From positions 31,002,001 through 31,066,000 of the forward strand of contig OX485806.1 in the NCBI GenBank assembly GCA_950295325.1: a stretch of 64,000 nt of DNA, in the 5' to 3' direction. Below, piece after piece: positions 1 to 62,800 of this stretch (within the stretch, counting starts at the first letter, position 1; each line of letters opens with the position of its first letter). Origin of the DNA: Polytrichum commune. Taxonomy: Eukaryota; Streptophyta; Polytrichopsida; Polytrichales; Polytrichaceae. The notes below the pieces were generated by a model. The model was given only the letters and a program-made list of their open reading frames with translations. It was not told the DNA's origin and did not search any database. Both the position numbers and the translations under genes were made by a program.

Positions 1-2381
1 ACTAGCACTACGGCTATCCTTCTTCACAGGTGAACCCTACACAACATGATTATATGTCAATCAAAATGCTTCAGACAATACACTAAATCATGCACAATCT
101 ATAACTCATGCCAAGAATACATCATTGTTTTACTCTGCAACTAGTGATAGATGATTACAATCTCATATGCTGATCTTTACCTGAGGATTGGCAGGTGAGG
201 CTGACCTTGACCTGAATAAACAAACAGTTGTTCACAATTCAGCAACCAGCAAGAGTCATTACGAACAATGACCATTAAATATGAAGTTAAAAATTGTACT
301 AAACACAAGTATGCACAACGCAAAACAGAATGACAGTAAATAACCTACTTGGACAGTGAATGAACCGACCGAGACCGAGATCTAGACGCAGGAGTGCGTG
401 ACCGTGGTGATCGAGATCGGGATGGTGGTGAAGCACTGCGTCCTCCTGATTTACTGCGAGACCGGCTGCAATCAAGAAGAGTAATGAACTGAACGTTAAG
501 AGAGATATTTTTTAAAACCAAAAACACAACCAAACAAATACAGATACCCAACTCTAAATTAACCATTATTATCTACAAGGTTTTATCACTTGCAAAGAAG
601 AACTGACACTTGCTAGATAAGAGAGCAATCCCTAAACTGTCATGAAGTCAAAATGCAGCCTATGAGTTCTGGATGACAACAACACAGATCACAACTCTTA
701 AAGCTAGTTCATTCAACTAATTGTCTTTTACACAGTATTAACTTCAAAGGCAGTGCATTCAATGGCTAAAAAGAACTAGAACCTGCGGCTGCGACTGCGA
801 CTTCGAGAGGCACTTCTTCGAGAGCCATAACCCTTATCCTCCTTCACACGGATAAATGAGCGAGAGAAAGGATTGCGGAATTCAGAATCATCCAACTTTC
901 GGATCTGAACACAAACAACAAGTATTAGCACAGATAACAAATAAAGTGGCAATAGAAACATCATGTTTTTGTGAACTGAGTGACAAAGAGCTCTAGAGGA
1001 GTAGCATGTACCAATTACTTACCGCATACTTCATATCATCATAGTTGGTGAAGTCCACAATTCCCATTGTTCCAGCTGGAAAATCCAACATGTGTGGAAA
1101 TAAGCAAACGAACTTCAAAAAACGGGGCAACTACCAAAAGAACGTTACAATTGATACAACTGAAATTCATATCAGGAAAGCACACACTTACCACCACCAT
1201 CACGGAATACTTGGGCAAAGCAGACATCACCAGCCCTTCGCATGTGATCCTACAGTCAATTGAGAACACCTTGAGTGCTACTCACAAACCCTTACAGTAA
1301 GCGCAGAAAACAAAAATAAGTGCACACATCAGCAAATCAACAAAAGACATGATGTAACATAGGTAACTGAAAACATTCCAATCAAGAAAATCTCAGAATT
1401 TACATAATATAACAAACCTTCAAATCTTGCCAAGACGCAGAAGACGGAAGTCCAGTCACCATCACTGCAGCAAAGGCAACCCAATGGTGTCAAAATTCCA
1501 TCATGAATTTGATTATACAACAAAGCAACTGGGTCAATGCAATTCCCTGAAATACTTACCTCTATATTCTGAGCGTCTGGAAACACCTCCTGCTCGACCA
1601 CCACCATCCCCGCCACTCCCTCCACCTCCTCGACCACCAGCACCACTGTAGATACTGTATCGGTCAACAGCTGGGGGAGGGCCTCGCCCACCATGCGCAA
1701 GTTCCACCTGGTCACATAATAGAGCATTTCTGAGATTAATTCAAAAGTCAAATTGAGTTCAGGAAAGAGCTAGAAAATCATATTATTGTTATCCATCCAA
1801 CCTACACAGATTAAACTACATGCATATTTATTGGCCTCTGTCGAACTCCAAGCACAAAGCAAACAATTAAGATGAAAATACTCATTGAAAGTCATGAACA
1901 CACTACTATTGTACTCCTGTCAAAGCATGTGATGAGATTACATTACCCTCAATCGGTTCCCATCGAAATTATACCCATCCCGCCCTCGAATGGCATCTTC
2001 CGCATCTCTGGTATCTTCAAACTGCAGACAGAGAGACAACTTTGATCACTATCACACTTGATGAGGAACAAAACTCAATAAGATTCAGATAGAACTCACA
2101 AATAGGAACCAAACCCTTCTAACACCGTCTTTACCTCAATAAAGCAGTATCCGGGTGGGCGAGGAGGCAACTTCAAGTCGATGTCCACAATTCTGCCATA
2201 CTGCACACGCAAAATAAGACAAAGGTTTAGTCTTCAGTATTTTGCATAAATCTTGCAAAACATTTGCCTCAATGATCAATAGGCGTTGATTTACCTTGTA
2301 AAACAAATCTTCAATCTCCCGCTCCCTCACATCCCCAGGGAGGTTTCCAACATAGATGGTTCGACTCGCGCGGCTGCTCAT
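1..2381 (-). CDS. SR34: SR34-type serine/arginine-rich splicing factor (3' end cut by window edge)
   Basis: This is a nuclear pre-mRNA splicing factor of the plant SR subfamily (SRSF1/ASF-SF2 orthologues), which binds exonic enhancers and recruits the spliceosome. Eleven exons join in frame: 2381-2295, 2200-2135, 2021-1947, 1707-1560, 1464-1418, 1249-1192, 1075-1023, 904-783, 465-349, 211-181 and 36-1 (continuing outside). All introns are GT-AG. RRM1 spans about residues 8-76, with RNP2 IYVGNL and RNP1 GYCFIEFE. A glycine-rich hinge (about 94-118) leads to the pseudo-RRM at 126-195, which carries the diagnostic SWQDLKD heptapeptide at 136-142. An RS domain begins near 205. About 280 residues are visible. 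The ATG at 2381 gives the usual short MSSR start. The exon 9 donor overlaps an in-frame TAG, so retention of that intron would truncate the RS domain. The family assignment is very secure; the choice among SR34/SR30 paralogues is not. Confidence 0.96.
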
Positions 2382-3060
2382 AGTTCTGGCTGTCGCAAGG
2401 AGCCCCTCTGATTGCTGGTACTACTCTTCCGAGTAAGAGTGACTGAACCCAGCAAACCAAGAACAAAGGGTTAACCAAAAACGTTCGTATAAGCAACTTG
2501 ACTCACCCGATCATATTCAAACAAAGTAAGTTACCAACTGACAGAATCAGTGGGCACCTGCAGCTAAAGCTGAAAACAGAAAGCTATGAGGCCAACCAAT
2601 AGCGACATCTTTGGGTCCTGTCCAAGCGAAGCCCCTCAAGCTCCACCGCTCCCTCCTTTTTAGCTCCAGGAAGCTCCACAGCTATGCACGACTTAGACAG
2701 GCCAAAATCCCAGAGAGTCTCTCACTCTTGAGCATTGGAAAGAGAGAAATTCATCAGAGCGACGACGCTCCACTGGTTTGCCAGTGGATCAATTTTCCAC
2801 TCCTTATCCCTCTGTGTCCCTTCTCTCCCTCCCTTTCTTATTCCTCGCTCCAACATCTCTACAGTGTTCATTATTAGCGCTCCTCCCTCCACGTTGTCCA
2901 TGCTCCACTCCACGCAGAAATCTAATTCCAAACAATCCAAGGTTTTGCTCTGGGAGTAAGGTGTCGGTCTCCCTTTTTACCTTAACTACCTCTCTTTCCC
3001 GACCGCCAGCGTTGACGCAGATAGATATCACGGCCTCAACGTGTGCACTGCACAGAGAAT
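2382..3060 (-). promoter_or_regulatory. 5' flank of the SR gene (putative 5' UTR and promoter)
   Basis: This lies immediately upstream of the SR start codon. On the minus strand an ATTGG (inverted CCAAT) motif lies near 2600, and long pyrimidine tracts run through 2800-3000. Short ORFs here overlap on both strands and show no domain, so I read it as leader plus promoter. SR genes often have an intron in the 5' UTR, but no TSS or UTR intron can be fixed from sequence alone. Confidence 0.4.
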
Positions 3061-3299
3061 AACAGCTTCTTACTTACTCTCTACCATGCTATAAAAGCCC
3101 TGCCAATGCAACCATCATAACAACTCATATCAACCCTAACCTTCCGTACAGCATCTCTACTTCACAACCACACGCTCTGATGGAGAAAAACTGTTCCCTC
3201 GCAATTAACACCGACTTCGACAAAACTCAAGCCCGTCCTTTCCCGAGCAAAGGCACTTCAGAGCGCAGACTTCAGAAAAACAAAACACACAAGACGCTG

Positions 3300-3720
3300 T
3301 TCATTGCTACCAAAAACTGACAGAATCACCACTACTACTTCACAATAAGCCACCGGATAAAATGGCACTCTTATAATACCACAACACAATAGGCGCACCT
3401 GGTGTTAAACTCCTAACTTCACGGTACTACCCTAACCACGTCACGGGTGATTATAAATGAAACCCTTGCAGGTGCGATCGGTTCGTTCGAGCAAAGTCGC
3501 TCCAAATCGAGAGGAAAGAAATGTCAAATGTTATTCATTGCTACCAGAGACAAACCATCATGCCGCTGTTTTAACAATCGCTGATACTCCACAATGAGCC
3601 ACAACCAATACACTCACCTAACCACACGTCAGAGGAGATGGCACATGAAACCCTTGCGGAGGCGATGATCGGCGCGGCCAAGGCTACTTCAAAACGAGAG
3701 GAAAGAAATGTCAAAATGCA
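3300..3720. repeat. Imperfect tandem duplication upstream of the SR gene
   Basis: Two diverged units of about 200 bp follow each other (about 3300-3530 and 3535-3720). Both contain, in the same order, CATTGCTACCA, a CACAAT(A/G)AGCCAC segment, ATGAAACCCTTGC and the closing GAGAGGAAAGAAATGTCAAA. The area is rich in CpG compared with the DNA beyond 4 kb. It may be a duplicated promoter module or a small tandem repeat; no coding signal is seen. Confidence 0.65.
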
Positions 3721-19890: not shown

Positions 19891-22015
19891 GGGTAAAGAG
19901 GCAAAGACCACCTACTTGTACATAGCAGTGTAGTTAAAGGGAAGCTACAGCCACAAGCATCCAATGTATGTGTCCAAACACACATACATATGTCTATAGT
20001 ACACAACTACAGCCTTTTCGCATGCATGAATCTCATCCTTACATGGATGGGCCCTGGTAAATAAGCCTCCTGCAGTCTACAGTTCGGTGGTTATCTTTTA
20101 CTCTAGGTCAACACTTAGTTTGATTTAAGAATTCAAATTCTATTTCCAGGGCAGTACAGGCCGTAAAAGTAAAATTGCAGGCTATAGGTTACTTTACTGT
20201 GCAACTGTAGTTTACATGGTGGGCAAGTTCACATACATGCAGAGAGAGAATCTGTGGACCCTGCAGTGCTGATTCCCAAATTTGGGGTAGTGAAATTACC
20301 GAACCAAAGTGAAAACGTCCTTCTCAAGAATTTGAAGTAGCAGTAGTGTTAATCTTGAATTCAAACTTTGAGCGTCGTTTTTACCTTTTGTATTGATGTC
20401 AAAGACAAATTTTCAAAATCACTTGGAAATGCGTAGGTCATAGGTTGTCCCGCAACTGCTCAGTCCCAACCTGAATCGAGTACAGTGCAGTATTAAATTC
20501 CACTGAAAAATCTCTATCGTCATCAGTTCGTCAGTTCACATTACATTAAATAGGCTGCGTCAGAAGCGCCATGAATTTATTACTAACTCAAACCAGATTG
20601 TACCCTGCATGATTTCATGTACAACTTCCAGACCAAGTTCCCCAGCAACAATCAAGGATCAAACCCTGGAACTAAAAGGATGTTGACTCCCATAACGCCA
20701 TCCACCACATACCCTTGGACTCTATGTATGTCCAAAACAGAAAGATAATGATTGGCAAAATACCACATTTCAATTAGAAAATGAAGAGTTTGGAAACTCC
20801 AATAAAATGAACATTTCTATGAAGGTCTCTTAATACTGAAGGGCCAGCTGCGTGTAAATAGGTAAGTACAAGGGTCATGGTAAATATATTCTATGGAAAC
20901 ATAGAGGAACACCTCCATAGTAATTTGGTGGTGGAGATGAGATAATATCTAGTTCAATCACCTAACCAATAAAGGATAAGCACTTCACTCGTAATCAAAT
21001 AAAGATCCCGTATCCCTGCAGACACTGGCAACCTCGGTGCACACTGCGAGTCCTGAGGAACATGCCCAATTGAAACTTGCCCTAAACTGCTGAAGCACTA
21101 GAAAATTTTGGGGTTTTAAATCATGGTGAAAGCTTCCCACCAACCCAGATACAGTACAATCTTTGGTATGTCCGACATCCCTTGTATCAGGCCTACCTCC
21201 AGAGGAGTCAGGCTGCAGTACATCACATTATGGAGATAATAAAGTGGGACGCTCTGAGATTGCTGGGGTGAAATCTACAAGATATCCTGGGCGACCTGTC
21301 AACCTCATGTACAGGTGACCATTATGTTCCATAATCTTCTACTGACCTGCTTTTGAGCTAAATCTTCACATCACCAACAACACAGCAAGAATACTGGAAA
21401 ACTGGATCAGCATGGTACACTATATCTCTGATGCATAGTGCCCAGAAGCATCCAAAGCCAAGTTGCTCCCTGTTATCTTATGTGAGGACTGCAAAGAGCA
21501 CTGAGCAAACTAGGTTTAGGCGAACCTAGCTTGCTTTCATTATAGGATCAGTGATTGAACCGACATTTGATGCACACCCCAGTTGCACAGGTTTTTATCT
21601 AAACTTAACTCATCAAGCAGAACATGGATCCGTGCCACTTTTGACCCCTCCCACCTTGTTAGTATTAACAAAAAGCTTTCTAGAATGGCTTATCCATGAA
21701 GCAGGAGCTTTACAAGCATAATCGATTCCAGCAACATTGTTCATATGTAGATGTCCAGTTTTAGATCGTCATCTAGCAAGTAAGATTTGCTAGGCGCGAA
21801 GCACAAAAGGAGTCTGAAGTGGCTTGTAAGCAGGACCTTTTCAAAATCTGCTGAGCCAACCTGTATATAAATTACACCTACCTATGATGAGAGCAAGAAA
21901 GGTGTCCTAACGAGCGCAGAGTCAATGTACAAAGAATCACCACGTCAGCAGACTACGAAGATGATGTGGGTTGAGAAACAATGCGTCCTGACCACCATGC
22001 TGCAACATCATCAAC
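19891..22015. other. Region 3' of the zinc-finger/SAP30 gene; no second gene recognised
   Basis: Composition is less AT-rich than the DNA to the left. The part nearest 22,015 probably holds the 3' UTR of the minus-strand gene. No exon chain or domain was found on either strand. Confidence 0.4.
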
Positions 22016-24494
22016 CTATTTGGCCACAGTATGGGCAACCTGATGCTGAGACATTGTTGTAGTTGCAAACGATTGCTGTTTCTTCAAAAAAAAGGCGAAT
22101 GACAGCAGTGTCTCATTCTCCTCCACAACCTGGAAAACTTAGAATTTGTGAGAAATCAAGAACAAATATTCATCATACACAACAATTGCTGCCCCTAAGC
22201 TTGGGAGGTCTGTACGAAGCATACCTGGGCTGCAAAATGCTGCGCAACAGCTGGTACAAGCTCTTCCTGAAACAAGCAGCCAGATAAAATCAAATGTCCA
22301 CATGCTTTTATAAGGAACGACTTCAACGACTTCTTACTGGAAGGTGAAGTCTAGAAATATAACAAAGGCACAAGATCCTGTCTAACAAGCCCCAAACAGC
22401 AAACAGCCGAAACTTAAAAGCGACGTCCATTGCTATTGCTTCAAATATGCACGCTGATGGATTAATGGAGCAGGTCAGGTGCAATTTTAGAATGACTCAC
22501 ATGCATCTTCCAGAAAAGCCTTCACAGGTGTCACTTATTCTTACTACTGTAATATAGCCAATTTGCACCTCCCTCAGGATTGACAAGTCCGATTGTGCAT
22601 TTACTTACCTTGCAGCCGCTCGTAACTTCCCTCAGGTTGTAGACCCGACGATACCGCTGTAATGAAGATGTCTGTCACCGATGATGACATAATGAGTAAC
22701 CAAATCAGACAATATGACACCAAGCAGGGTCTCCATAAATGGAAAATAGGAAGAAAACAGAAGCAGAGACAATGGCGAAAACTAATTTATCAGGTCAGGT
22801 ACTCAAGCTCACCTCAAGCTTGGAGAGATCCACTCGCAGAGGGCGTCTTGTGCTTCTACAGGGCAGAGATAGCTTTGGCTCGTGATTGACCTCCTGCAAA
22901 CACTCAGACTGACAGTGTCACACCTGTTCAAAATCTGGAGACAATGAAGCTGGCTCCAACTGCTCATAGAATAAAGGCCCATGGTAGACTTCCTACAACT
23001 TTCAGAGGCATTTTGTCAAAATTGCAAGGATCTCATCTCCCAGCATAAATTTTGTTAAAAGCTTGCTCACCATGGAACTGTTCTCTTCCTGCATTTGATT
23101 TTGAGCTGCAACCGGCTGCTCTGGAGCAATTGCTCGAACAAGACGCCTTTTATCCCCAGATTCTTGAGAGGTCTGCTAATCAAATTGCACCTTTCAGTCA
23201 AAAACCTATAACAAAATACCTTTCATCACCCTAGGACGCAATGCCCAACTTGATGAAAAGGGCCTAGGAAACTGAGAAGGTTGTTTCGCAGCTCTTAACA
23301 TACACAGGCGAGTGGCACAGCACATTTTCCACAGGAGCTGAACGCAAACGACGAAGACCTACCTCTCTGCAACTGGGACAGAGATAGAAAGCCGTTGAGT
23401 CCACTTTATTGCCGCCACTGGACTCGCATTCCACATGAACCCAACGCCGACAAGTCCTATTGTCACATCCTACCCACTGGACCAAAAAGAACACACAAAC
23501 CCTTCTCAGAACTACGGCGATAATGGAAGTAGGAGAAGAAGAAGAGAGAGCTCAGTCAACATAGGTCGTCAAGACTTTCCATTCAAAATGCCGGCGGACT
23601 TCATGGCAAGAAGAAATAAGTCGTGTGCTTATCGGTGGAAAACCACTGATTGATAAGGTACCTCTTTTCCGTCGAAGCTGTCGGGGTCCTTCTCGCGATA
23701 TATTTGAACACAGAAGGGACAATACTTTCCCTGCAAATTTCGTGTCCAATACGAAGAAACATCAACTGTCAGGTTCCTCCCACACTAGCGACATAATGGA
23801 CACTCGACTCCCTTCAATATTAGCAATGGAACCCTTCTGCTTTTTATTTGATTGTCTTTGAACCGTTTCCTGAGCACATTTACTTGTGAGTCGATGTCTG
23901 TTTCTCTAACGTCCTGTTGGAAGGAGGCGAGACAATCACCTACCTGATCATAATTGATTTTACAAGCATTACAAAGCGTAACATAATTCGGCTCCTTGTG
24001 GCTCCCGTAATTCCGTACATGCCACCGACAAGTCCTGCAGTCATCGGCACGGTAAGTTTGAAGTGGCCTTTTTCTCAAATGCGGATGGATCCATTAGCTG
24101 ATGAAGAAGTGTAATAACCTTTGCAAAGATTATTCTGTACCGCTTCTATTTCTGCCACCTAGCTAAGTAGAAGATGCTGTTGGATAGGAAGGCATGCAAG
24201 GTTTTCCAATTCGTTAAAGTTGCCTCCAGATTGTACAATGCACACCAATCCTATGAAGAAGAACCTCATCTCATTCAAAGGTACGGCATCTCCTCTCGCA
24301 CCTTCGTCCGTACGAAGCAAATGGTCGAATATTTGCCGAACAAGAACCGCTTGGAACTTCAACTTAACTACTAACAGACACACAGATCGTGAGAAACGAG
24401 AAATAGTGGGAGGACAAGGCAAAGAAACTCACGGTCCATCTCCGGGAGATGTCCGCTTGCAATGAGGATTAGAGCAAAGCTGCCGCGAAAACAT
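22016..24494 (-). CDS. Zinc-finger/PHD/SAP30-domain protein, Sin3-HDAC type (complete, 10 exons)
   Basis: Predicted nuclear chromatin protein of 268 residues. Exons 24494-24433, 24034-23944, 23730-23662, 23476-23363, 23172-23071, 22992-22924, 22893-22813, 22671-22609, 22266-22225 and 22129-22016 all join in frame, nearly all in phase 0, with GT-AG introns. Residues 7-45 form a GATA-like Cys module (CSNPHC, then LCNAC). Residues 55-110 are a canonical C4HC3 PHD finger: C55/C58, C78/C83, H88/C91, C107/C110, with WVHVEC. A linker leads to VDLSKLE (190-196) and RYRRVYNL, followed by EELVPAVAQHF and ETLLSFAFFLK, which matches the SAP30 Sin3-binding domain. SAP30 tethers Sin3 to histone deacetylases, and PHD fingers commonly read histone H3 tails. 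The start ATG at 24494 follows an in-frame TGA. I am sure of the PHD and SAP30 calls; the first Cys module is less certain. Confidence 0.88.
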
Positions 24495-25660
24495 TGTTCA
24501 CAGTTGGACAGCACATAAACAATCTGCCGTGCGCTATCCAATCAATCAATCAACCGGCGGCGGCTACAATCTGACTCCCATTTGTTGATCACGCTCTGTG
24601 CCACAACTGTTGATGCCTTCGTAAGCGGACCGAGTAGTCTGTGCTTCCCATTCGCATAAACATAAAACAAAAACAATACAATCCCCCGCGACACGGAAAC
24701 TACTCCTAACTCTATCAAACGCGGACGTTAAGACTCCAACATCATCACCATCATCAACATTCCGAGCTGCTGCTAAAACTTGAACCACCACAAATCCTCA
24801 CTACGCCTTCCTAAGTTGACTTCACATCTGCCTTCCATCACAACATAATCACAGTCTGCACAATTTTACCGGCGATACTATCCAAATTACGCACAACCTC
24901 CGACCACCTCCCTTTACAATGCATAACTATCCGCCACCAAATGCACTCTCCGCCACCTCAAGTCATCAAGAACGCCTATCTCCGACTCCTATTACCGTCC
25001 CTCCCCCTCCCCCTCCCCCTCTCTCTGCAGACCGATGCCGCAGCCTTCAGCGCAAATCAAAAACTAAAGACCACCACCGCCGACACTTGTCAATTGTGGC
25101 CTCCGAGCGCGAGGTGGCGGGAAAGGCGAGGGAGGGAGGGCGAGGGTTTAACAACAATGGACGGACGGACAGACGGACAGAAAGACAGAAAGAGAAAGAA
25201 ACAGCAGCGGACAGCGACGGAAACGAGCGAGCAGGCAGCGTAGAAACAAGAAAAGGAAGCGCAGCAGCGGCAGGAGAGGCGGGATGGAAAGCCAGCGCGA
25301 GACGAAGATGCCTAATTTTCTCCCTTTCTCTGCACCCTCCCCGCAACTTTCCCTTTCCCTTTCTCCCCTTCCCTTCCCTTCCCTTCCCTTCCCTTCCCTT
25401 CCCTCTTCAGTCGCCTCACAGAAAGAAGACAAAAATGCCACGAGTTGGTGGCGCTCGCAAGGAGAGCCCCCCCTCGGCCCTCCCCCGGGCCCGGCGTCGC
25501 CCGTCCCTGAACACGGGCAGTACCGCCCGCGCCCGTCGTCGGTCAGCTTCCTTTTCATCCATTTCTGTCTCTCTCTTTCCGCTCATCCATCCATCCATCC
25601 CTCCCCTAACGACAAAGCTAGCCTGTGGTTTTGGTTGAGAGGTCACACCACTCTCTAGTG
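24495..25660 (-). promoter_or_regulatory. CpG- and CT-rich island upstream of the zinc-finger/SAP30 gene
   Basis: This stretch separates the start codon from AT-rich repeat DNA and is unusually rich in CpG and pyrimidines. It holds a CCCTT tandem at about 25,345-25,402, GGACGGACAGACGGACAG-like sequence at about 25,159, and a CATC tandem at about 25,585-25,600. Long ORFs on both strands (for example 24,919-25,638) are low-complexity and overlap each other, so I read the region as promoter and 5' UTR and not as a gene. A divergent plus-strand transcript cannot be excluded. Confidence 0.5.
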
Positions 25661-25721
25661 GCAAGTATTATGTTCCTTACTTACAAACAAGACTCGTAGA
25701 CGGAGAGGGAACCCTCGTACA

Positions 25722-25855
25722 CAAGCATACCTCTCTCATCCATCCAACATGAAAACATCGCCCCCAAGCATACCTCTCTCATCCATCCAACATGAAAGCA
25801 TGACCCCCAAGCATACCTCTCTCATCCATCCGACATGAAAACATGCCCCCCCCCT
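25722..25855. repeat. Three tandem ~44 bp units
   Basis: The unit CAAGCATACCTCTCTCATCC followed by ATCCAACATGAAAACAT and GCCCCC occurs three times in a row with only a few substitutions. It is at the outer edge of the CpG island. Confidence 0.85.
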
Positions 25856-27079
25856 CCCTTGTTGCCGATTCATCTCAAATGACCTCGAGCATACTAATTG
25901 GGGTTCTATACAACTTTTTAGAAAAACAACACCCAGGTTGCATGTTATTTCATGGCTTTGATGTTGGATAAATGAGAGATATCCTCGTATATGAATACCA
26001 TAGTATCTTTATCACTTTCTATTTATACAAGAATAAGTATTTGTGGTTTTTATTTTAGATTCAACGATCCCGCCTTTTAAGGAAATCTCATTTTTCATAT
26101 TCAATTTAAAATACAATCTCCAAAAAAATCGGTTTTCTAGAAAATATTTTTATTAGTGCCAAAGTGGTGAAGGTTCTATGAATTTCCCTTTCTCCCTTGC
26201 AAACAAGGGTGGCCAACTTAAAATGTTGTTCAACGTGTAATGAGGATGTGTATATCTTCAATGGGCTTCTTCGAATTGGCCATCCTTTTCGTCTATCCAT
26301 GACTTCTCTACAACAAAAGTAGATGTTATTTTGGTTGAGAAGGGGATCAAATCCCTAGCAAGTGGAATACTAACAAGACTCGAATGGTTGAGTGTGGTTG
26401 GTGACTCAATACAACGATCAACGTGTCATTAATGTTTGTATCTTCAAATATGATCTCCTTCGAAGTTGCTCCTCCATTTTCATCTAATCCTTTCCGTTCA
26501 TCCATCTCTCAGCTCATTACAAAGGTAGATGTGATTCTGGTCAAGAGAGGGTCCACAACTCAAGTGGAATACAAGGCTTGCACACGACAATGCCCAACTC
26601 AAAGGGGTGACCAACATGTACCCAATCAAATGGGCTTCTCTCAAACCTGGCATGATTTTACACATATATGGATGTTATTTGGGTTGAGAGGGGTCCATAA
26701 CTAACACCTCTAGCAAGTTTTAGCGAGAGCATAAACACATTAGGGTTCATCAACTCAAATAACAACCACTAGATAACTATATATTTGTCTCTACTTGTTT
26801 TCGGTGGGGGGTGAGAATCAAAATGAAAGTTAGGGAACATAATCACGAGTACCTAAGTTACTATAACATGTACCCAAAAAGAAAACAATGACTACAAGGG
26901 CTCAATCGCATCTCAGTAAGCAAGGTTCAAGGAAGGAAAGCTAGCCCTAGCCCTAGCCCTAGCCCATATAGCCCATAGCCATAGCCTACCCTCCTCCAAC
27001 TTTGCACACTTGACCTATGTTTGAAGGCACCCTCCCTATCTAGACCATTTCCATGATTACATCTAGAATCTACCAATAG
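25856..27079. other. AT-rich intergenic DNA with a telomere-variant run
   Basis: No gene recognised. At about 26,941-26,968 there is a CTAGCCCTAGCCCTAGCCC run (GGGCTA unit), which differs from the standard plant CCCTAAA telomere repeat. Segments at 26,310-26,400 and 26,515-26,720 share GTAGATGTTATTTTGGTTGA-like words followed by GAGGGGTC, indicating a local duplication. Confidence 0.5.
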
Positions 27080-27945
27080 TATTCCAATGTGTGGGACCAT
27101 ACACCATCCCCCATGGATTTATAAACCCTATATATAGATCACGTATAAGTCCTACATATTTGGGATGGGTAGGTACACCATACATGCATGCATGCATGTG
27201 TATATAATAGCAGTATTCCAATACATGGGACCATACACCATCCCCCGTGGATTTACAAACCCTATATATAGATCACTCATAAGTCGTACATATTTGGGAT
27301 GGGTAGGTACACCATACATGCATGCATGTATATATAATAGTAGTATTCCAATACATGAGACCATACACCATTCCCCATGGACTTATAGTACCTCTATGTA
27401 GATCACTTTTATTATATATGTGGTACATAGTTGGGAGGGGTAGGCACGCCATCCATATAATGAATGCACCTGTGCATACATACATACATGCCATCATTAT
27501 TCTAATGTGTAGGCCCATTGTCGTTCACCGTTTCCATGGGTTTGTAATACCTATGTATAGATACCTTACACCTACGTAACACACAATTGGGATGGGTAGG
27601 TACACCATGCATGTAACAAATACATCCATACATACATATGCGAATATGTGGCACCATACACCATCCGCCATCCACCATGTATGTATAGTACTTGGACGTA
27701 TATCATTTATAGGTAGTATGAAGTTGGGATGGATAGGGATCCTAGACATAAAACGAATACACCCATGCATACACACATCATACATATCAATATCATTCCA
27801 ATGTATGGGCCCACCATTCACCATCTCCATGGATGTATGATTCCTATATATGGTTTCATTATACCTAATAGTTGGTACACATTTGGGATGTATAGGTACA
27901 CCATGCATTTACATATGTATGTATGTATGCATGCATGTATACAAT
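27080..27945 (+). repeat. ~140 bp tandem array, about six units
   Basis: Units starting near 27,086, 27,218, 27,348, 27,502, 27,645 and 27,797 share CCAATGTGTGGGACCATACA, then CACCATC.CCCATGGATTT, CCTATATATAGATCA, TTTGGGATGGGTAGGTACAC and a TGCATG microsatellite. The first three are closest to each other, and divergence rises to the right. All ORFs here repeat the same peptide and are not genes. Confidence 0.9.
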
Positions 27946-59800: not shown

Positions 59801-62800
59801 GTGCATGTGTAGTTTCTAGGGACCTCTTGCAAGGTCTATTTCATAAGGGCTGGTTTACACTAGGGTCTGAGACCAAAGAAACTCCAAAATCAAGTGATAT
59901 TATTGGTTGAGAGCAAAGTTTTGGACCCAAGGAGTTAACACTAGGGTCCAGGACCAAGGTATGAAAAATTGAAGTCGCACTAATGTGGCATTGATTCCTG
60001 CCAAATATCAGCAATCCCCATTCCTGAAAATACGCCTAGTTTGAGAAACCGGTTCTCAAGCTTGGGTCCAAGCTTGAGTTTGAGAAACTAAGATCCATTA
60101 AGGGGTGTTCTGGATCCCAAGTATTGGACCCGGACTCTAATGTGTGATTTGGTTTCTCATGGGTACTCTTTGTCCAGGCAGTTAGCATCAAGCCAATAGT
60201 GGTTGGGACTCATCTCCTCCTTGCAACTGGTGTGGGTTCCATTTTCCACGGAGCCATGCTAGTGTTACCCACTTTAGTCACTGTGTCAATTGGTCATCTT
60301 TAAAGTTATGGGTACCGAGGGGCTCGACGAGGCTAGTAGGGGAGGAACAATGGGTGATCAAAATCTCTCTGTACAGGCTGTTAGAAACAGTCCACCTCTT
60401 AATTGAGGCAGTAGGTTGTGGGTGAAGAGACTCTATAATTCATCCAGTGTTGGCAAACAGACGCATTATCCCTTTTTCTTTTTTTCCTATTTTTGCAGGT
60501 AGTCATGGGGACGGAGATCCAGCAAACACAGAAACCCCTATCGTTGCTTGGGGAGCAGGTGTTCGTGGACCAGGTGTGGCAAGGCATGAAGATGATATTG
60601 ATGATGGTGACCGTTTTGTTGACCAACACACTCACCATGAAAAGACTCCTGACTCATGGCACCTCAAACATGTAGAGCGCACAGACGTGAACCAAGGAGA
60701 CATTGCAGCCCTGATGGTGTGTGAGAATATACATATATAGTTTTACTTCCATGTTGCATCTTTTGGATGCCTCATAAAGATTGATGCAGAAACCCACTGG
60801 AAGAGACTGTAAACAGCGAGCCTCAAAGCACATGGTTAACAGTCCAGGACGTACATTCTCTAATTTATATTATAAACATCATAGGTTTCAATATTGACTA
60901 ATATAACTGATTTCTGATTGGTTGGTTTTGTTGTGACAGTCGACACTTCTTGGACTCCCATGTCCACTCAATTCTGTCGGAATATTGCCAACTGGATTTC
61001 TAGCTCTTGAGAAGGTTTGGTTACATAAACTTGGTTTACACTTTGTTCCTGATTGTTCATGCAATCTGATTGTAGGGGCACATTGTGATGAAGGCCACAT
61101 AGAGTTTGGTGGCTCAAAAATAATTTCACATTAGATTCAACTACCACTGTTTGGCAATAGCATACATTCTGGATGAATAATAATTGAATACTGTATCTTA
61201 GCCCTACTTGCATCAACTAAAATCAATTATTGTAAGGTAGAGGGAAACCTTCCTTTCCCTGTCTCCAGACTTCAGAATAACCTTAGTGGGTTAAGCCAAA
61301 GATTTTGTAATCTATGTTTTTGAGGGAAATATTTCTCAAGTTTTGTGGCATGCAGTTCTTTACTATATTCTTTGTTTCTGCAGAAAGAGCAGGCACAAGC
61401 CATGTTTGCAAATGCGAAACAGATTCTCAACCAGGTCCTTTGCAAAGCACGTATCCAATCCTCTATTTGTTGAGCTCATAATTGTCTATGTTTCTTATAA
61501 CGTTTCTATCTGTGGGCTTGTCTGGCTAGACGTTAGGCCAGAATAATTCTGATCAAATAAGAACCTCCAGATGACACCTACTTTTGTATATTCTGTACTC
61601 TGTGGTACTTCTCCATTTGCAGCTTTAGTGGTTACCAATAAACTTGTGACAGCGAATTATAACATTCAATGTTTGTATTGCCTTCCTTAATCGAGACTAC
61701 AGAACTGAAGCAGGCAACTTCACTATTTTTCAAGCCTTTTGTACCCTTGACAGGGTATAAGACCATTCTTGCCTACATCGATGAACACATATCTAATGAT
61801 GAATTTGAAACTGCAATGCTATCAGCAAAAGAGCTTATGAGGCTTGCCCTAGATGGCTTACATTACTTCCAGACGTATGACTGGTTGTTTCTCATGTCGA
61901 CAATTATTACTGGATATTTGGGCTGGATGATATACATTTTTCTTCACATTCTGGAGTCCTATACAGACTTCCCTCTTTCTCTGGAACAAAAGAGTCAGCA
62001 AGCATACGGCATTCCATCAAGCAAGAACATGGTATGCACTCCTGTCTTACACAAATTAGAACTGAATAGGAAGTGGTGGTTGTCTTGGATGTATATATTG
62101 TTATCCTGTTAGGAACTCTTCTATGATTTTCTAACAGTCTTAGTGGTTCTTATTCCACCATGTAACCAAGTAGCCAAGTGATATTCATTTTATTTTACTT
62201 TGAAGTGCTATAGTCAACACTTCACTCTGTGAAGTTAGTTTTATGGAACAACATCTATTCCTGAAGTGTTATCATATTAGTATCAAGCCAATAGCTTGAG
62301 TGGTTGGGACTCATCTCCCCTTGCATGTGGTATGGGCTATGATGCACCCAAGTTTTTATGTGGGTCACCGGATCAACCAATTATCTTAAAAGTAGTTGGT
62401 GCTGCGGGGCTTGGCGAGCCTAGTAGGGACCAATGGGTGAACAAGTTGCCCCACTTACAACCATCAGACAGAATCCACCTCTTAATTCATGCTCATGTTG
62501 ACAAACATAGTCGTTATCCTTTTTGTTCTTGTATTTAGCTGATGCGAACGGGCTTATATGTTGGTAGATTTAGTTTGCGACTTGGTTTGCAAATTGTGCG
62601 TGTCATGTGATGTAGGTGCGCCTTGCAGGGGGAATATTCATGGGAATATGCTCTCTAATACTCTTTGTGGAGAGGTCCCCACCTCTCTATCACGCTTATC
62701 TTGGATTATCCGTGTTCTTTTGGACGGAGATTTTGTCAAACATGACCCTTTTGAGGAGCATTGCAAGTGCAGTCCAATCAGCAAAAGTCTCCCAACTACT

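Follow-up and report, generated by a model that had tools for sequence, protein, structure and literature searches.

Whether one gene of the moss Polytrichum commune joins a PHD finger to a SAP30 Sin3-binding domain, and what a protein of this build would do, is the question raised by a locus on the minus strand of a 64,000-nucleotide stretch of contig OX485806.1 (the whole stretch is referred to as the window). In animals and yeast, a PHD reader and the Sin3 anchor are usually found on separate subunits, whereas the moss gene appears to join both.

Exon chain of the putative PHD–SAP30 gene

For exon placement, the minus strand was read over positions 21000–25800 of the window. The first-pass annotation had proposed ten small exons that splice in frame into 268 residues, and the reading revealed that ten exons at 24494–22016 can indeed be joined in frame into a chain of this length, closed by a TAG stop at 22016 (Table 1). 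All nine introns of the model start with GT and end with AG. Intron 1 is in phase 2 and introns 2–9 are in phase 0, with lengths, from first to last, of 398, 213, 185, 190, 78, 30, 141, 342 and 95 nt. An in-frame TGA is found two codons upstream of the ATG, which is therefore the earliest start in exon 1. Further upstream of the gene, the window harbors two tandem arrays, at 25722–25850 (43-bp unit, 3.0 copies) and at 27078–27407 (134-bp unit, 2.5 copies), and a part of a PIG-N gene of GPI anchor synthesis lies at 61663–62109 (Pfam PigN, 52.5 bits).

Table 1. Exons of the ten-exon model, with the share of random open stretches that score as high in the codon-usage test (a weak test)
Feature	Position in window	Strand	Content	Random stretches scoring as high (%)
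Exon 1	24433–24494	-	ATG and first Cys pair (C7, C12) of the putative N-terminal zinc module; GT donor	9.7
Exon 2	23944–24034	-	Second Cys pair (C42, C45) of the N-terminal module; AG/GT borders, in frame	37.4
Exon 3	23662–23730	-	First half of the PHD finger: C55, C58; aromatic Y54, Y62	14.2
Exon 4	23363–23476	-	Second half of the PHD finger: C78, C83, H88, C91, C107, C110; aromatic W75, W86	27.4
Exon 5	23071–23172	-	Linker between the PHD and SAP30 parts; in-frame ATGs inside	2.4
Exon 6 (first-pass annotation; doubtful)	22924–22992	-	May be a skipped or alternative exon	4.4
Exon 7	22813–22893	-	End of the linker and start of the SAP30 domain (VDLSKLE)	5.4
Exon 8	22609–22671	-	SAP30 domain (QRYRRVYNL)	10.3
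Exon 9	22225–22266	-	SAP30 domain (EELVPAVAQHFAAQ)	2.1
Exon 10	22016–22129	-	End of the SAP30 domain, C-terminal tail, TAG stop	7.9

The part of the ten-exon model that did not hold up well is exon 6. Plant introns have a minimum length of roughly 60 nt, and exon 6 is doubtful because intron 6 (22923–22894) measures just 30 nt; reading through this intron leads to an in-frame TGA. The mRNA that encodes the SAP30 part probably lacks exon 6; without this exon, exons 5 and 7 join across 177 nt with the frame kept, giving a product of 245 residues. A SAP30-less alternative form, i.e., a PHD-only product closed by the TGA that follows exon 6, could nevertheless be made, and it is kept as a possibility since just 4.4% of random open stretches reach the codon score of this exon.

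Such a PHD-only form, ending ahead of the SAP30 exons, would also suit the view that two neighbouring genes or transcripts, one for a short PHD protein and one for a short SAP30-like protein, have been falsely joined by the conceptual splice. Read-through of exon 4 could likewise reach a stop at 23264, and a separate start of a SAP30-only protein is possible because exon 5 has in-frame ATGs. Against this stands the short distance between exons 4 and 7, just 469 nt, in which an open exon flanked by AG and GT connects the two in phase, and we regard a false joint as quite improbable. When bridges of one exon with GTA or GTG donors and both introns of at least 60 nt were searched for between exons 4 and 7, five open in-phase solutions were obtained, four of which are forms of exon 5; the full exon 5 came joint first with one shortened form when ranked by a crude consensus score. 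Joining exon 4 directly to exon 7 likewise keeps the phase, so the frame does not force the inclusion of exon 5. Taken together, a single PHD–SAP30 gene is the simplest model and most likely the right one, since the two parts lie on the same strand within 2.5 kb, with phase 0 over the joint and an open bridging exon; the PHD and SAP30 parts would then be carried by one mRNA. The first-pass claim of both domains in one chain is favored by the phase-0 joint and its open bridge, and is qualified by the exon 5 ATGs, which allow a SAP30-only start.

Codon usage was examined with a weak test, trained on the longest open frames found at four loci of the genome. Fewer than 5% of random open stretches score as high only for exons 5, 6 and 9, and a frame other than the coding one has the higher score in five of the ten exons (2, 3, 4, 7 and 8). 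The Cys-rich exons 2–4 are not separable from random open stretches by codon statistics. What supports the predicted gene is its domain matches and the in-frame exon chain, not codon usage.

SAP30 domain, PHD finger and N-terminal cysteines

The first-pass annotation had recognized a SAP30 domain by its motifs and had made the claim depend on a significant HMM match. Pfam analysis of the 268-residue model revealed SAP30_Sin3_bdg (PF13867) at residues 195–243 (E-value, 3.2e-14), and the match is not a chance one, since its 53.4 bits exceed the cut-off of 22.2. The 245-residue model scores 53.7 bits, as compared with 53.4 for the longer one. In a phmmer search of solved structures, residues 189–250 pair with SAP30 of 2ld7 over 62 residues (E-value, 0.00067). 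By these sequence matches, the identity of the SAP30 Sin3-binding domain is unambiguous, and the domain is predicted to dock on PAH3 of Sin3. A C-terminal Sin3-binding domain of this family is common to SAP30/SAP30L, yeast Sap30 and the window protein. Animal SAP30 also has an N-terminal zf-SAP30 finger, the place of which is taken in the window protein by the PHD finger and another Cys module; no zf-SAP30 match was obtained at E-values up to 1 for the whole protein or up to 10 for residues 1–58. The NCBIfam search gave no match.

All eight zinc ligands of the C4HC3 type are present in order (C55/C58, C78/C83, H88/C91, C107/C110), at the positions and with the canonical spacing given by the first reading, and the second knuckle is C-x4-C. 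For the whole protein, the Pfam PHD model (PF00628) matches residues 55–110 with an E-value of 3.7e-4 and 20.9 bits, and for an isolated 75-residue piece with an E-value of 4.4e-5 and 23.9 bits, both short of the cut-off of 24. PHD_Oberon yields 23.2 bits for the whole protein and 24.9 for the piece, both under its cut-off of 28.8. Thus, the claimed PHD finger is probable, supported by E-value and ligands, yet it stays under the curated Pfam thresholds. The ING domain (PF12998) was not found in the window protein by Pfam at E-values up to 1.

Among solved PHD structures, the whole protein has weak matches to BPTF (E-value, 0.013) and MLL PHD3 (E-value, 0.021). The PHD piece matches 31 sequences of solved structures at E-values up to 1, with BPTF (0.0025), ALFIN-LIKE 1 (0.0085) and MLL PHD3 as the best relatives, again weakly; ING1, ING2, ING3 and png2 rank lower, and the matches also include non-PHD entries (CW-type, BMI-1 and a pilin). 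Several of the BPTF, ALFIN-LIKE 1, MLL PHD3 and ING fingers bind H3K4me3. W75 and W86 are aligned with chain residues 23 and 32 of BPTF, and Y54, Y62, W75 and W86 with F, Y, M and W of MLL PHD3. From the zinc-ligand register, Y54 and Y62 presumably correspond to BPTF Y10 and Y17. Alignment and ligand register combined place aromatic residues at the four BPTF cage positions (Y54, Y62, W75 and W86), and the aligned residues of BPTF and MLL PHD3 are those of the H3K4me3 cage. On this basis, the finger is predicted to prefer H3K4me2/3.

The fusion may also be real and docked on Sin3 while its PHD finger either binds H3 that is unmodified or acts as a structural brace, like PHD2 of PHF12, which is described as structural rather than substrate-recruiting in the excerpted text of PMC10156912. 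The divergence of the window PHD, which lies under the Pfam cut-offs, would fit such a role, but aromatic residues at all four cage positions are more than a structural finger needs, and we hold this possibility to be unlikely, though deserving of weight.

Two pairs of cysteines, C7/C12 and C42/C45, lie in the N-terminal part, with the spacing C-x4-C-x29-C-x2-C. This part had been called GATA-like in the first-pass annotation, a label that is not upheld: no GATA model was listed either for the whole protein at E-values up to 1 or for residues 1–58 at E-values up to 10, and the spacing is unlike that of a GATA finger. Residues 1–58 matched no family model at all at E-values up to 10, in a search in which the HMMER filters drop most weak matches. 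Near 17.15 Mb of contig C5, an open frame of 835 codons (positions 907–3414 of that locus) has an LC-x2-C pair, shared with the window protein, and an alanine-rich part. After the LC-x2-C pair follows a PHD-like stretch (20 of 70 residues identical to the window protein), which is weak and divergent as a PHD finger (Pfam PHD E-value, 0.14). The second Cys pair adjoining a PHD finger may therefore be a recurring unit.

SAP30 and SIN3-type genes and ING-like PHD exons in the genome

The genome searches took in 408 Mb on 64 contigs, one of which (C8) is evidently plastid, with psaA/psaB and rbcL. Among solved structures, psaB is closest to 8htu, 6l35 and 7ksq (1705–1701 bits, as compared with 1667 for the one ranked fourth), all from Physcomitrium patens, as would be expected for a moss. 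A profile search of the genome with PF13867 gave a single match, to another SAP30 gene near 2.82 Mb of contig C2. In this gene, whose exons were placed by eye, a stop codon lies in frame ahead of the first ATG, and the SAP30 domain comes after a short N-terminal part. Over 113 residues of its product, Pfam scored SAP30_Sin3_bdg at 55.1 bits and found no PHD finger, and, by its layout, the gene is taken for one of AFR type. The SAP30 domains of the two genes are identical at 25 of 43 residues (58%). A phase-0 intron after F-x-x-Q is common to both, whereas the other introns in the domain differ; as judged by eye, exon 9 of the window gene ends at the same place and in the same phase as an exon of the C2 gene.

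With the C2 protein as a probe, two matches were obtained in the genome, both on C2, and the window gene was missed. Conversely, the window protein missed the C2 gene, and the PF13867 search missed the window gene, so further SAP30 genes split by introns could be missed by such probes. At E-values up to 1, the window protein matched the genome 11 times; nine of these matches are the window gene itself, and the remaining ones are PHD-like stretches on contigs C5 and C6. No second copy of the fusion was detected with this probe, whose sensitivity is limited, as its failure with the C2 gene indicates. A single copy would be compatible with a decaying or non-functional, unexpressed duplicate of a SAP30 gene that had captured PHD exons. 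We consider such decay very improbable: all ten exons are open, the nine introns keep GT and AG, and neither the eight PHD ligands nor the SAP30 core has been lost, although the SAP30 part is just 58% identical to its sister.

The profile search of the genome for Sin3_corepress gave matches at two places, 28.69 and 32.44 Mb of contig C4. Both SIN3-type matches are thus on the contig of the window gene, ~2.3 and ~1.4 Mb away from it, possibly by chance. An ING-type PHD probe matched nine places in the genome at E-values up to 10, four of them at E-values of 3e-5 or lower, on contigs C2, C3 and C4. The ING domain (PF12998) had no match in the genome, which shows little, as introns may split the domain. 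In a collection of prokaryote genomes, 42 stretches fit a peptide pattern and none was confirmed as a relative, as expected.

Proposed function and comparison with known Sin3 complexes

We consider it fairly probable that this single moss gene encodes an accessory subunit of a Sin3-HDAC complex, docking on PAH3 and equipped with a PHD finger that reads the H3 tail, likely in its H3K4-methylated form. What the sequence itself shows is both domains, the zinc ligands, an exon chain that stays in frame, and SIN3-type genes in the same genome. The protein would be nuclear, with the PHD finger near the N-terminus, a linker of ~60–85 residues depending on the model, and the PAH3-type anchor at the C-terminus. 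Its SAP30 domain would dock on PAH3 of a SIN3-like scaffold while the PHD finger would bind the histone H3 tail, most likely K4-methylated, and this would keep the deacetylase at H3K4-methylated promoters with no need for a reader on another subunit, presumably with repression as the outcome. One moss chain would do the job for which Sap30 and Pho23/Cti6, i.e., two or more chains, are employed. The genome has ING-like PHD exons at other places too, so the reading function does not depend on a fused reader.

It is conceivable, although we lean somewhat against it, that mosses have a second, dedicated SAP30-type subunit, with an H3K4me-reading PHD finger built into the Sin3 anchor, beside the AFR-type complex. 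Such a Sin3-HDAC variant would read active-promoter chromatin unaided, whereas the AFR-type complex would rely on transcription factors or ING-type subunits. If true, this would provide direct evidence from evolution that H3K4me reading and SAP30–Sin3 docking form one functional unit. A natural fusion would support the pairing of both functions and would offer a small protein for testing how plants direct Sin3-HDAC to active promoters. The weight of the finding would be smaller if plant databases already contain many PHD–SAP30 proteins.

According to the excerpts of the plant literature, the SAP30 function-related proteins AFR1/AFR2 and OsSFL1 have, like the window protein, a SAP30-type Sin3-binding region; AFRs form complexes with HDACs, SNLs and AtSAP18, and AFR1/AFR2 are recruited by AGL18 (PMC3760768, PMC6953189 for OsSFL1). 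No PHD finger is mentioned for AFR1/AFR2 or OsSFL1 in the excerpted text of these two sources, in contrast to the window protein. A region resembling the Sin3-binding one is reported for nine proteins of Arabidopsis, two of which are named in the excerpt (PMC3760768), so a PHD-bearing relative in Arabidopsis is possible. In the available portion of a moss study, the SAP30 homologue Pp3c20_6230 is listed among the differentially expressed genes (PMC7181705).

In yeast Rpd3L, as described in the excerpted text of PMC10224958, at least three helices of Sap30 contact PAH3 in one copy of Sin3, to which Sds3 is stapled by Sap30, and flexible tethers carry the H3K4me3-reading PHD fingers of Pho23 and Cti6; the animal counterparts of Pho23/Cti6 and Sap30 are given there as ING1/2 and SAP30. 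Cti6 and Pho23/ING1-2 are thus, by this account, PHD subunits of Sin3L/Rpd3L separate from Sap30, whereas the window protein would join both.

The nearest known logic, by the excerpted description in PMC10156912, is that of PHF12 (Pf1) of the human SIN3B complex, which is a precedent for a histone reader and a Sin3 tie in one chain. There, a role in presenting H3 is proposed for PHD1, the contact of SID2 with PAH3 is called "reminiscent of SAP30", and PHD fingers and a PAH3-binding segment share one chain, as they would in the window protein. PHF12 differs in having two PHD fingers, an MRG-binding segment and a differently built complex, and the two proteins are likened here by description, not by sequence. 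In the titles and abstract beginnings of the matches listed, Physcomitrella included, no published description of a PHD finger and a SAP30 domain in one chain was found. As far as can be told, the logic of a reader combined with a Sin3 anchor is known from PHF12 and Cti6/Pho23, and the fusion of a PHD finger and a SAP30 domain in one chain is new.
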